This document shows, one piece after another, positions 6,397 to 47,847 of a stretch of DNA of 64,000 nt. This DNA is from Pseudomonas viciae (GTDB lineage Bacteria; Pseudomonadota; Gammaproteobacteria; Pseudomonadales; Pseudomonadaceae). Below the pieces are notes generated by a model. It had not been told where the DNA came from and searched no databases. It saw only the letters and a list, made by a program, of their open reading frames with translations. Both the position numbers and the translations under genes were made by a program. The stretch's first letter is position 1. Each line of letters starts with the position of its first letter. Location of the stretch: NCBI RefSeq assembly GCF_004786035.1, contig NZ_CP035088.1:1276001-1340000 (forward strand), written 5' to 3'.

Positions 6397-6532
6397 CGCT
6401 TTCCGGGGATGACCCCGTAAGCTTAAATCCACACACGTGTCGACACGATGACCTGGGTGCCTCGGCTTATATAAGCCGCTGGTTGGTCATTGGGATACGT
6501 GGAGGCCAAACCCGACTTATCAAGGAACTATC
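6397..6532 (+). promoter_or_regulatory. rpsB leader, candidate S2 autoregulatory RNA
   Basis: The untranslated leader contains a perfect palindrome CGGCTTAT/ATAAGCCG at 6463-6478 and an ACACGTGT palindrome at 6433-6440, and ends in AAGGA before the rpsB start. A structured rpsB leader that binds ribosomal protein S2 to repress translation is known in E. coli and relatives. Position and structure fit; binding is inferred. Confidence 0.55.
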
Positions 6533-41280: not shown

Positions 41281-41288
41281 CAGTCCTG

Positions 41289-41421
41289 TGTCGACGGACA
41301 GACACACCTGTCATGGACGATGGGGAGGAAGGACATCGCAGGACGCGATTCATCAGGACGATGAAAAGGACCAAAGGGATTAGGGAAAAAATGTGGGCGG
41401 GTCAAACCGCCCCTTTTTTTT
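41289..41421 (+). ncRNA. rsmZ: Small regulatory RNA RsmZ
   Basis: An RNA of about 130 bases beginning TGTCGACGGACAG and ending in a GGGCGG/CCGCCC terminator with eight T (41395-41421). It carries many GGA motifs (ACGGAC, ATGGAC, GAGGAAGGAC, CAGGAC twice, AAGGAC, AGGGA) that bind and sequester RsmA/CsrA-type proteins. The position between rpoS and fdxA is the known rsmZ site in Pseudomonas. It is expected to be induced by GacS/GacA at high cell density, relieving RsmA repression of secondary metabolism and exoproducts. Confidence 0.92.
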
Positions 41422-44790: not shown

Positions 44791-44958
44791 TCAGGCTCGT
44801 TTAGCCTCGGCCTGCATCATCACCAAGTTCTGCTGCTTGGTAGCCTCTGTCAAAACCTCGCCATAAACACGCTTCTTTTGGTCCGACTTTGCATTACGGA
44901 TAAAATCGGCAAAGGTGCTTTTGGCTCCTTTGGACAAGCCTAGCTTGATCGAAATCAT
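44791..44958 (-). CDS. Small protein of 55 residues coupled to the zeta-toxin gene
   Basis: A 55-codon gene beginning MISIKLGLSKGAKSTFADFI and ending MMQAEAKRA. Its ATG overlaps the zeta-toxin stop (ATGA), with GGAGGG just before it, so it should be translated by coupling. The product is basic and helical, rich in Lys and Ala, with no cysteines or signal peptide. I do not recognise its family. Position suggests an antidote, chaperone or modulator of the toxin, but in classical epsilon-zeta pairs the antitoxin comes first. A terminator follows at once. Confidence 0.7.
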   Translation of the reverse strand: MISIKLGLSKGAKSTFADFIRNAKSDQKKRVYGEVLTEATKQQNLVMMQAEAKRA

Positions 44959-45713
44959 AGGTGCCCTCCTGATGATGGCTCGAGCGTGGCTTCTAGGTCG
45001 GCCCGCGTGTGTTGCTCAGGGATATGGTAGTCAATTTTATCGACACCAGCTTTGTAAAGTCGTCCCGAATTATCGATATGCTTGAGCAATAGATCCACAT
45101 GGACGTCACCTCGATACTCTAGCTTAAGGGCGTTCACTACGTCACGTGCGGCGAAGTATTGCTTGATGAAATGTTCTTTGCGGATCCTCCTACCCTCGGC
45201 CGCCTCGCGAGCGTTGACGAATTCCCAAGCAAGCACAGGCGATTGATATACATACAAAATCTGTACGAATCGCCCTTTTTTCAAGGAGCGGTCTACGTTC
45301 CGTCTTGCTACGTCTATGTTAGAAAACGTTCCATCAAGGATGAAGGACTGCTGTTGATCCAACGCAAAATCCAACATTTTATCGACCAGAATCGATACAC
45401 CGCCCTGAAAAAGCCAGGAATTTGCCCCCGCGTAAGTAGGAAATTCGCTTCGCAGTTCATCAGCGTCTATGCGTAGGATGGCGGTATCTGTAAATAGATT
45501 CACCAAAGCTATTGATGCCTCGGTTTTACCCGCGCCTGGAGAGCCCGCCATGAAAACTGATACCGGCGCCTCTTCTGGCGGATAAAGCACCTTATCTGTG
45601 AGTCGCTTTGCGATTGCTTTTTTATTGGATCTAGCGAAGCGCAATGCGTCTTCACAAACGGCTTGGTCTGCTGAGGTCATTACCTGGTTGCGTGTATCGG
45701 CGTCCTCCGTCAT
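44955..45713 (-). CDS. Zeta-toxin-like P-loop kinase
   Basis: A 252-residue protein with Walker A GSPGAGKT at residues 57-64 and the motif RIDADELRSEFPTYAG at 81-96, where zeta toxins have the catalytic Asp and substrate-binding residues. Known zeta toxins phosphorylate UDP-N-acetylglucosamine and block wall synthesis; related proteins phosphorylate other small molecules. A further DGTFSNIDVARRNVDRSLKKG segment matches the lid region. ATG 45713 follows AAGGAG at 8 bases. No upstream antitoxin is seen; a small gene overlaps its end. Its codon use looks less GC-rich than the core genes, suggesting transfer. Confidence 0.8.
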   Translation of the reverse strand: MTEDADTRNQVMTSADQAVCEDALRFARSNKKAIAKRLTDKVLYPPEEAPVSVFMAGSPGAGKTEASIALVNLFTDTAILRIDADELRSEFPTYAGANSWLFQGGVSILVDKMLDFALDQQQSFILDGTFSNIDVARRNVDRSLKKGRFVQILYVYQSPVLAWEFVNAREAAEGRRIRKEHFIKQYFAARDVVNALKLEYRGDVHVDLLLKHIDNSGRLYKAGVDKIDYHIPEQHTRADLEATLEPSSGGHL

Positions 45714-45810
45714 CAATCCAACTCCTTTTCGACGATACCTATTGTTTGAACCGAGCTATGCCAGACCACGTTATGCCTAGTGCTGCCCATTTATGGAAGT
45801 CGGTAAAGCC

Positions 45811-46002: not shown

Positions 46003-46359
46003 CTACCTCGGCTCAACTACATCCAACGCCCGATTCGCCAGCAACTGCCCCAGCTCAATCATCTGCTGGACCCCTAGCGCGATATGCCGTCGCGAGCCCT
46101 CCATATCGAACGCCAGATCACTGACCATGGCGTTGGCCGAGGCCAGGGTTTCGCTGAGGTTGGCGAGTAGGCATTCGGCGTCGATGTTAGGGGCGATGAC
46201 GAAAAGGGTGTCGGGTGTGTAGCCAGTTTCTTTGTCGGCTTTGGGTTTGAGGTAATAGTCCAGGGCACGAGTGGCCGCGTCGTCGAGTTTCTTGGCGTTG
46301 GCCGATTGGCTGCGGGATGTATGGTCTTTTTCAGGGGGATTCGGAGTTGGTTTGGTCAT
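46003..46359 (-). CDS. Pseudomonas protein of unknown function (DUF6124/DUF3077-like)
   Basis: A 118-residue acidic protein. The N-terminal third is hydrophilic and looks disordered (MTKPTPNPPEKDHTSRSQSA); the rest is predicted helical, with DTLFVIAPNIDAECLLANLS and SDLAFDMEGSRRHIALGVQQ. It resembles short proteins found almost only in Pseudomonas, often in several copies per genome; the family number is from memory. No signal peptide or membrane segment. AAGGA (46370-46374 on the minus strand) precedes the ATG and is overlapped by a strong inverted repeat, so translation is probably controlled by leader structure. Confidence 0.7.
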   Translation of the reverse strand: MTKPTPNPPEKDHTSRSQSANAKKLDDAATRALDYYLKPKADKETGYTPDTLFVIAPNIDAECLLANLSETLASANAMVSDLAFDMEGSRRHIALGVQQMIELGQLLANRALDVVEPR

Positions 46360-46611
46360 AGTCTTGGATCCTTAAGTTGGAGCCACTACCAATCCGCTAC
46401 TAAACGAGATGGGCGGCAGCTGTACGCAGGTTAGTAGACCGGGGATCCAAGAAACCGGCGCGCCCGAGGGCGCCCTGCGCACAGCTACCATTGAGCGTAG
46501 GTAAGAAATACCTGGCTGAATAGAGCAATGTTCGTCTTGGAATGCCGGGCTACTAAACCCGATCACTGATGGGCAGTGACAGGATCAAAAGTACCGATGG
46601 GATCCAAGGTG
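46360..46611 (-). promoter_or_regulatory. Structured leader, candidate cis-regulatory RNA
   Basis: Read on the minus strand the leader contains a 14-pair helix (46475-46488 with 46416-46429, two G-U pairs), hairpins at 46563-46579, 46546-46561, 46500-46512 and 46460-46473, and a 10-base sequence at 46443-46452 that is the exact complement of 46362-46371, where the ribosome site lies. A 7-base competitor for the same anti-ribosome-site sequence lies at 46535-46541. Three loops (46550-46557, 46431-46437, 46397-46404) carry UUUAGUAG, CUACUAA and UUUAGUAG and can pair with each other. This pattern suggests switching between open and closed forms. Confidence 0.6.
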
Positions 46612-46793
46612 GACAAGCCGGCGGATTCTGGCGTAGTTGTAGGCAGAGGCGCAAGGCGACGTAGCCTCGTGTCGCACATTTGAAGGATGCTGGGTTGGGC
46701 CGTTTCCCACGAGGTTGTAGGGGGAATTTCCCAAGTGTCGGAAGACATGACGCTTGGTCGCAACACCGTTCATTTGAGCGTTGGATTGAGTCC
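46612..46793. other. Non-coding stretch upstream of the structured leader
   Basis: No gene is supported. An inverted repeat CCTCGTG (46665-46671) and CACGAGG (46708-46714) may extend the leader structure. Short frames here have no ribosome site or recognisable product. The promoter for 46359 probably lies in this stretch but cannot be placed. Confidence 0.4.
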
Positions 46794-46834: not shown

Positions 46835-46903
46835 CACAAGTTGGCCGCCCTACGTAGCCAGCGAGAGTGCTGAGGACAGCGTGCATCGGCGTTGAATGTG
46901 CCG

Positions 46904-47008
46904 CCGTCTTCGCGAGCAAGCCCGCTCCCACAGTTTTACCGAGGTGTTCACAGACATCGCATGCACCCCAAATCCCCTGTGGGAGCGAGCTTGCTCGCGA
47001 TAGCGGTG
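46904..47008. repeat. REP-like inverted repeat pair, reversed arm order
   Basis: TTCGCGAGCAAGCCCGCTCC and TGTGGGAGCGAGCTTGCTCG face each other with the GTGGGAG ends inward, between the leader region and the tailocin repressor. Confidence 0.8.
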
Positions 47009-47062
47009 GTTCAGCTTGCGTTGATGTAGGAGGGAAGCAGTTCGTCGTCGATATGCACGCTT

Positions 47063-47076
47063 ATGCAAAACAGCAT
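47063..47076. promoter_or_regulatory. Repressor operator upstream of the tailocin repressor gene
   Basis: ATGC-AAAACA-GCAT is a perfect ATGC-N6-GCAT palindrome 28 bases before the repressor ATG. A near copy with GCAA as right half lies at 47113-47126. It probably allows autoregulation. Confidence 0.55.
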
Positions 47077-47103
47077 TTGTCTTCTGCAAAAAGAACAAGC
47101 ATC

Positions 47104-47847
47104 ATGCGCGTTATGCAAAAACGCAACGTTTCTACCGTATTAAGAGCATTGCTCGATCAGCACGGGATCTCCCCTACGGAGCTTCACCGTCGTACCGGCG
47201 TGCCTCAGTCCACCCTCTCCCGGATCCTCAGCGGCAAGATCGTCGATCCTTCGGATAAACACATCTCGAAGATCGCCGAATACTTCGCGGTGAGCACCGA
47301 CCAGTTGCGCGGGCGCGCGGACGTTGTGCCTATTGGCAGCGCCCGCCGCGACGAGCCGCATTCCGAACTCAAGGACATAAGCCTGTGGGATGACGATACC
47401 CCCGTCGAGGAAGACGAGGTGTCGGTCCCTTTTCTGCGTGAGGTTGAATTGGCTGCTGGATCAGGAAGATTCGTCATCGAGGAAAGCGAGCGTTCTAGCC
47501 TGCGCTTCGGCAAGCGTAGCCTGCGCCATAACGGCGTGCAGTTCGACCAGGCAAAATGTGTGACGGTGCGCGGCAACAGCATGTTGCCAGTGCTGCGCGA
47601 CGGGGCCACGGTCGGGGTGAACGCGGGCAAGTGCGGGATCGGCGACATCGTCGACGGCGACCTCTATGCCATCAACCACAACGGCCAACTGCGGGTGAAG
47701 CAGCTTTACCGCCTGCCCACTGGCATCCGCCTGCGCAGTTTCAATCGCGACGAGCATCCGGATGAGGACTACACCTTCCAGGAAATGCAGGATGAGCAAA
47801 TCGTCATCCTCGGCCACGTCTTCTGGTGGGGCATGTACGCCCGCTAA
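47104..47847 (+). CDS. LexA-like phage repressor (PrtR/CI type), S24 peptidase
   Basis: A 247-residue regulator with an N-terminal Cro/CI helix-turn-helix (GISPTELHRRTGVPQSTLSR) and a C-terminal self-cleaving domain: cleavage site Ala118-Gly119 in ELAAGSGR, nucleophile Ser159 in GNSMLP and Lys199 in LRVKQLY. Like P. aeruginosa PrtR, it should be cut when RecA is activated by DNA damage, releasing the tailocin genes. The start is uncertain: ATG 47104 and 47113 are both weakly served, and ATG 47053 would place an operator inside the gene. No activator gene like prtN is seen. Confidence 0.85.
   Translation: MRVMQKRNVSTVLRALLDQHGISPTELHRRTGVPQSTLSRILSGKIVDPSDKHISKIAEYFAVSTDQLRGRADVVPIGSARRDEPHSELKDISLWDDDTPVEEDEVSVPFLREVELAAGSGRFVIEESERSSLRFGKRSLRHNGVQFDQAKCVTVRGNSMLPVLRDGATVGVNAGKCGIGDIVDGDLYAINHNGQLRVKQLYRLPTGIRLRSFNRDEHPDEDYTFQEMQDEQIVILGHVFWWGMYAR

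Follow-up and report, generated by a model that had tools for sequence, protein, structure and literature searches.

In Pseudomonas viciae, the gene for a DUF6124 protein stands behind a chromosomal leader of the type found in the immI region of phage P1, and we propose that a C4 antisense RNA within this leader represses translation of the gene through loops that are keyed to this individual copy (probability about 0.8). (Our window is a stretch of 64,000 nucleotides from contig NZ_CP035088.1, and all positions refer to it.) The sequences directly establish the C4 structure, as a predicted fold, along with the gene order, the perfect complementarity, the copy-specific matching of loops and targets, and a three-way compensatory change. 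The C4 RNA family is known; a self-keyed, genus-wide family of such units appears to be new.

A C4-type leader in front of the DUF6124 gene

The Rfam family for C4 antisense RNA matches the leader over the whole length of its model, and the elements of the window follow one another in the order a1, b1, C4, a2, b2, gene, which is the order of P1 immI (Table 1). (We checked the elements letter by letter on the minus strand, and the a and b names follow P1.) In the annotated record of phage P1, the order is a1, b1, c4, a2, b2, icd, ant; a1 and a2 share one seven-letter sequence, and b2 ends ten bases before icd. The upstream part of our leader matched the Rfam family c4-a1b1 (RF03163, 46593-46542, minus strand) at 41.7 bits, which is below the cut-off of 46.7, and complementary a1 and b1 elements are present. 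The isrK model (RF01394) also aligns to the a1b1 part of the window, at 25 bits against a cut-off of 50.

Table 1. Features of the DUF6124 locus, in window positions
Feature	Positions	Strand	Remarks
CI/PrtR-type repressor	46867-47847	+	HTH and S24 peptidase; divergent from the C4-DUF6124 unit
Possible promoter	46588-46616	-	TTGTCC (46616-46611), 17 nt, TACTTT (46593-46588); proposed by eye
First hairpin of upstream target	46562-46580	-	GTCACTG-loop-CAGTGAT; within the RF03163 match
Second hairpin of upstream target	46546-46561	-	CGGG-TTTAGTAG-CCCG; a1 in loop (46557-46550), pairs with a' of C4
b1	46535-46541	-	TCCAAGA; complementary to b'
C4 antisense RNA	46409-46495	-	RF01695, 83.2 bits (cut-off 45), model positions 1-87 of 87
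C4 stems	P1 46489-46474/46430-46415; P2 46473-46460; P3 46459-46455/46442-46438	-	
b'	46443-46452	-	TCTTGGATCC; P3 loop; exact complement of the ribosome-site region
a'	46431-46437	-	CTACTAA; unpaired between P3 and P1
a2	46397-46404	-	TTTAGTAG; pairs with a'
b2	46362-46371	-	GGATCCAAGA; over the ribosome-binding site
DUF6124 protein (PF19619)	46003-46359	-	118 aa; 110.2 bits (cut-off 27); gene behind the leader
Zeta_toxin homologue (PF06414)	44955-45716	-	136.8 bits; next gene downstream of DUF6124, same strand

A preliminary description of this leader had taken its alternative pairings for a translational switch and knew of no described pattern that would fit them. However, RF01695 is an existing family that covers the leader, and because of this match we rejected the idea of an undescribed riboswitch or thermosensor. 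Neither a riboswitch nor a thermometer family was found in the window at the Rfam gathering threshold, or in 46300-46700 up to E = 1. What stands of the switch is that the pairings at the ribosome site are real, show compensatory changes, and point to translational control; nothing indicates a switch that senses a ligand or heat, and we regard the whole as an antisense-RNA leader of the P1 immI type. The individual elements had been described correctly. The 14-pair helix (46488-46475, GTAGCTGTGCGCAG, with 46429-46416, two G-U pairs included) extends to 16 pairs (46489-46474 with 46430-46415, minus strand). The ten-base element opposite the ribosome site is b', its seven-base competitor is b1, and the three loops with UAGUAG or CUACUAA are a1, a' and a2. 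A further repeat, placed near 46600, was right in part: GGATCCAAG is found there on the plus strand, but the minus strand reads CTTGGATCC (46608-46600), which is a second copy of the ten-base element itself. This second copy may lie between the promoter boxes and outside the transcript.

In the predicted structure (the minimum-free-energy fold of the window copy and a consensus of 22 sequences), C4 has three stems, with a' and b' single-stranded. Among the 22 C4 copies of this genome, 15 of the 26 consensus pairs show at least one compensatory double change. A 301-base stretch folds with z = -3.35 (0 of 100 shuffles were as good), and the C4 part alone with z = -5.9 (0 of 200). When the rest of the leader was shuffled base by base, a ten-base complement to the ribosome-site window arose by chance in 12 of 5000 cases. 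Boxes similar to the possible promoter of the window stand just 5' of the a1 hairpin in many of the genome's 22 copies (judged by eye from an alignment). A consensus promoter scan gave no match for the window leader, and automatic scoring of the best boxes chose other positions in most of the 22 copies, which disagree with one another.

We propose that a single transcript, made from one promoter, would carry a1b1, C4, a2b2 and the gene. C4 would fold into its three stems and would probably be excised by RNase P; this cutting is reported for P1 and P7 and is suggested by read coverage in A. baumannii, and the GGU at 46489 fits the RNase P site as described in the same article (PMC5320573). In cis and in trans, a' would then pair with a2, and b' with b2 over the ribosome site. 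By analogy with P1 and P7, where c4 pairing is described as repressing (PMC12197685), this would keep DUF6124 untranslated. The upstream a1b1 segment would compete for the same C4 loops and could relieve or delay repression; we infer this role by analogy. (For a Xylella genome, PMC12189769 tabulates isrK directly upstream of C4.)

Every one of these pairings is also available within one transcript, so that a purely cis-acting switch, similar to a riboswitch or thermometer, might operate instead: C4 would stay in the mRNA, and a1b1 and a2b2 would exchange on a signal. Two alternative structures of one mRNA, the IsrK leader, are reported to have been shown by mutation (PMC4825925). We nevertheless consider a cis switch unlikely, as the stable module of three C4 stems, which starts with GGU, has the form of an excised RNA and no Rfam riboswitch or thermometer family matches the leader. 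Furthermore, an antisense RNA is what the C4 of P1 and P7 is described as being, and in A. baumannii the C4-like RNAs are apparently cut out (PMC5320573).

Matching of C4 loops to their own leaders

The antisense reading can be compared across the genome, which contains 22 matches to C4, each scoring above the cut-off, and 20 to DUF6124. A C4 precedes 17 of the 20 DUF6124 genes, if one fragment of an interrupted gene is counted. From the RNA side, 17 of the 22 C4 copies precede DUF6124, one precedes DUF3077, and two stand before ORFs of 90 or 94 residues that match no Pfam family; no gene was found behind L019 and L022. For the three DUF6124 genes that lack a C4 (L028, L031 and L041), we sought C4 partners in trans and found none that was convincing. 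In L028 and L031, two hairpins resembling a1b1 still stand directly 5' of the gene (by eye), which would fit a loss of C4 with retention of its target. One DUF6124 gene behind an intact C4 leader (L004/L042) is interrupted by an insert, and an intact copy (L007) lies nearby. Similarity between copies starts about 160-215 bases 5' of C4 in 14 of the 22, and in 16 of the 22 it runs roughly as far as the gene's end; in the rest, mainly the C4 core aligns. The largest flanking ORFs differ from copy to copy (by eye), so we view these as scattered single-gene units.

We paired the loops of each C4, without gaps, with each leader from the 20 copies that have a start codon (L019 and L022, with no gene found, were left out). 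As a control we permuted the leaders, which allows for the mutual likeness of loops that hide a Shine-Dalgarno sequence. The mean for b' with b2 of its own leader was -16.6 kcal/mol, versus -9.16 for permuted leaders (sd 0.60), and for a' with a2 it was -11.6 versus -8.1 (sd 0.42); none of 100,000 permutations reached either value. When both loops were scored jointly, the own leader was the best predicted target for all 20 C4s, and the own C4 was the best predicted regulator for 19 of the 20 leaders (the exception was L016). Taken singly, the loops ranked their own partner first (counting ties as first) in 16 of 20 cases for b'/b2 and in 15 of 20 for a'/a2, each way. All 20 b' loops are distinct, and there are 12 different a' loops among the 20. 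Since loop and target sequences are particular to each of about 20 copies, we expect every gene to be controlled mainly by the C4 of its own leader. The joint margins were below 2 kcal/mol for L004, L006, L015 and L016, so some cross-talk is possible.

The upstream region gave a similar comparison: own pairing averaged -12.0 versus -9.9 for a' (0 of 100,000 permutations) and -14.5 versus -11.9 for b' (1 of 100,000). The own partner was ranked first, in the two directions, in 10 and 5 of 20 cases for a' and in 6 and 2 of 20 for b'. Pairing with a2b2 was stronger than with a1b1 in 13 of the 20 copies. A duplex test that allowed bulges was noisy because it included the GC-rich P3 stem (the own partner came first in 5 of 20 rows and 10 of 20 columns), and the ungapped loop pairing replaced it; its mean nevertheless beat 100,000 permutations.

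In loci from other genomes (the Pseudomonas loci being the top-scoring C4 of 30 genomes, which is a non-random draw), b' paired with its own leader at -16.8, versus -10.9 when permuted (sd 0.40; 0 of 200,000 permutations). This comparison used 32 distinct loops from the 43 usable of 47 loci, after 11 loci with repeated loops were removed; L071, L105, L113 and L118 were left out because contig ends kept C4 from its expected position. With b' only, the own partner came first in 19 of 32 as regulator and in 17 of 32 as target, and L065 and L069 paired poorly in the ungapped test. In named Pseudomonas genomes, C4 starts 132-202 bases 5' of DUF6124 at all 80 of the loci sampled, which are the best 80 of 513 and lean to close relatives. 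A set of 37 distinct loops (obtained by leaving out L189, whose loop was not extracted, and four loci without a start codon at the match, and by reducing repeats from 75 to 37) had a joint score of -26.5, versus -17.5 when permuted (sd 0.52; the lowest of 50,000 permutations was -19.8). Here, 28 of the 37 ranked their own partner first as regulator, and 23 of the 37 did so as target.

These results bear on the idea that C4 RNAs act mainly in trans, by targeting phages that enter the cell or by forming a network that acts on other genes, and that the adjoining gene is incidental. Action in trans has been suggested for the C4-like RNAs of A. baumannii, and the C4 of P1 is described as serving superinfection immunity (PMC5320573); some of our C4 copies have no gene behind them, and some joint margins between copies are small. 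However, the adjacent leader was the best joint match in every one of the 20 cases (compared among the leaders of the 20 copies), and the loop changes together with the adjacent targets, which makes a mainly trans role quite improbable.

Co-change at the mutS-prtR locus and distribution of the family

The locus of the window, between mutS and the prtR-type repressor, borders on a prophage region. One phage record, EU982300, is similar: in it, a DUF6124 relative adjoins prtR and has a C4 in front (L122). We compared 37 sequences of this locus, namely 34 fetched loci adjoining mutS or prtR, the window, L074 and L075. (L145, L146 and L151, which have only a weak prtR match, were left out.) In 22 of the 37, a' is CGACTAA and both targets have UUAGUCG; in the other 15, a' is CTACTAA and both targets have UUAGUAG. 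In all 37 sequences, a1 and a2 both follow the change in a'. One base of the antisense loop has thus altered in step with a single base in each of the two targets. As many of the orthologues are close relatives, the co-change may represent a single event or a few rather than 37. Compensatory changes, which the preliminary description had proposed to look for, are seen in the C4 pairs as well as in the a1, a' and a2 loops.

DUF6124 residues 1-118 are matched in 31 of the 34 fetched orthologues, including L227 and L238, which look frameshifted since the length of their matched stretch is not divisible by three. The position of the locus at the edge of a prophage region and the broken copies (the interrupted gene of L004, the C4 copies with no gene found behind them, and the two orthologues that look frameshifted) would fit a decayed remnant of prophage immunity without a present function, but this is hardly credible given those 31 matches, the compensatory change at three sites, the own-loop matching in 20 loci, and the C4 before each of the best 80 DUF6124 genes.

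C4 was found in 110 of 119 Pseudomonas genomes (in 109 above the cut-off), with up to at least 33 matches per genome. DUF6124 was found in 95 of the 119, with up to 43 per genome, and DUF3077 in 93. The counts of C4 and DUF6124 are correlated (Spearman 0.95 across 34 single-contig genomes, where the top C4 counts are at least 33 and kinship is not corrected for). In a sample of the class, 12 of 229 genomes have C4, with one to four copies outside the own genome; DUF6124 was found in none of these 229 genomes other than our own, and so in no other genus. The organism names among 120 listed of 794 DUF6124 homologues are also Pseudomonas. This agrees with the preliminary description, which had called the protein Pseudomonas-only: among the genomes sampled, PF19619 occurs in no other genus. 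In viral contigs, C4 lies upstream in 50 of 54 DUF6124 loci (about 0.6 kb away in L239 and L240), and in the remaining four the gene starts within 73 bases of a contig end. The plasmid records searched contained no DUF6124 relative.

When we examined the 29 best-scoring C4 loci of other Pseudomonas genomes, DUF3077 stood behind C4 in 10, DUF6124 in 6 (and weakly in one more) and neither in 13, so C4 is not tied to DUF6124 alone. None of the 17 C4 loci in the class sample has DUF6124 or DUF3077 behind it. (Some proteins behind C4 were scanned by their first 100-125 residues only.) In a recurring arrangement (L044, L056, L063, L067 and L070), C4 is followed by an ORF of 52-53 residues, then by one of 94 residues, which in L044, where it was scanned, has no Pfam family, and then by a DUF3077 match. 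Bro-N domains are common in phage antirepressors. Some C4 loci stand before Bro-N, SymE-type or Rha proteins (Rha is a phage regulator according to its Pfam description), and the Rha and Bro-N cases would fit a phage origin. In L115, from the class sample, C4 lies directly before a SymE-type protein (PF08845, 48.8 bits), which places a phage-type antisense RNA before a relative of a type I toxin.

The DUF6124 protein itself is predicted to be a helical hairpin: an AlphaFold2 model (mean pLDDT 77.5, pTM 0.49) has helices at residues 16-37, 61-85 and 89-114, with a ten-residue mean pLDDT of at least 90 for residues 61-110. A fold search with this model gave no PDB match at E <= 0.001 among 243, and comparison of the protein with PADLOC and PHROGs gave no match at E up to 0.1. 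Kinship with DUF3077 was considered, and the similarity is weak (hhalign probability 38%, E = 3.3e-4). The Zeta toxin homologue was rejected as a fixed partner of DUF6124 because it is missing in L074 and partly missing in L075.

Comparison with known C4-type systems

The leader resembles the C4 of P1 and P7 (immI; RF01695 and RF03163) in its RNA fold, gene order, bipartite loops, and the location of b over the ribosome site. Unlike in P1 immI, DUF6124 takes the place of icd-ant, and the next gene on the strand encodes the Zeta_toxin homologue. (In P1, the first gene behind C4 encodes Icd, which PMC8198154 describes as an inhibitor of cell division.) Also, P. viciae has scattered single-gene units with 22 C4 copies, and each gene-bearing copy has its own b' loop.

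As with the Group 1 sRNAs of A. baumannii, there are many C4-like RNAs per genome (21 in that species), and those RNAs are apparently cut from longer transcripts (PMC5320573). In the available text of that article, only the a' loop is said to vary, whereas in P. viciae b' varies most (20 of 20 are distinct, versus 12 of 20 for a'); and that text names no target for the Group 1 sRNAs, whereas the target here is the adjacent leader.

A second relative is the IsrK-orf45-anrP leader of prophage Gifsy-1, which is described in PMC4825925 as a silent leader that is opened in trans by an upstream segment, with a processed RNA downstream of that segment. The a1b1 part of our leader is like this segment, with an isrK model score that falls short of the cut-off. 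IsrK of Gifsy-1 is described as ending at a terminator (PMC4825925); in contrast, we found none between a1b1 and C4 in the window, and with a terminator-like signal there in 5 of 51 loci, we rejected a terminator as a general feature. The terms "C4 antisense" and "C4 RNA" are absent from the main text of PMC4825925. The same article describes the CI RNA of phage P4, which is likewise a processed RNA with complementary sites (seqA and seqC) upstream and downstream in its own transcript; it is described as acting on transcription termination, and we liken it to C4 by description only.

C4 had already been predicted in Pseudomonadales, as cited in PMC5320573. We found neither the word DUF6124 nor any description of C4 before DUF6124 in the literature searched (mostly titles and the starts of abstracts, with subscription papers and supplements outside the search); the word DUF3077 appears in one paper. 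Our reading gives a mechanism and a testable target for a large and little-studied gene family in Pseudomonas, comprising DUF6124 and part of DUF3077. A bolder idea, to which we give somewhat less than even odds, is that Pseudomonas converted an RNA of phage immunity into a large number of dispersed, private RNA locks. There would be up to tens of promoter-C4-gene units per genome, with loops that co-diverged with their own targets and little cross-talk, and the antisense-locked small proteins would possibly be toxin-like or phage-sensing. In any case, a genome with about twenty naturally diverged, self-matched antisense pairs lends itself to studies of the evolution of RNA-RNA specificity, and the pairs might also supply orthogonal riboregulators.

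We also noted three other features of the window. An RsmZ-type sRNA (RF00166, 126 bits) lies at 41287-41420 and a t44 RNA (RF00127, 70.4 bits) at 6412-6511, both on the plus strand. At 46913-46997, there is an inverted repeat, with weak matches to miRNA models on both strands, which we take to be of the Pseudomonas REP type.
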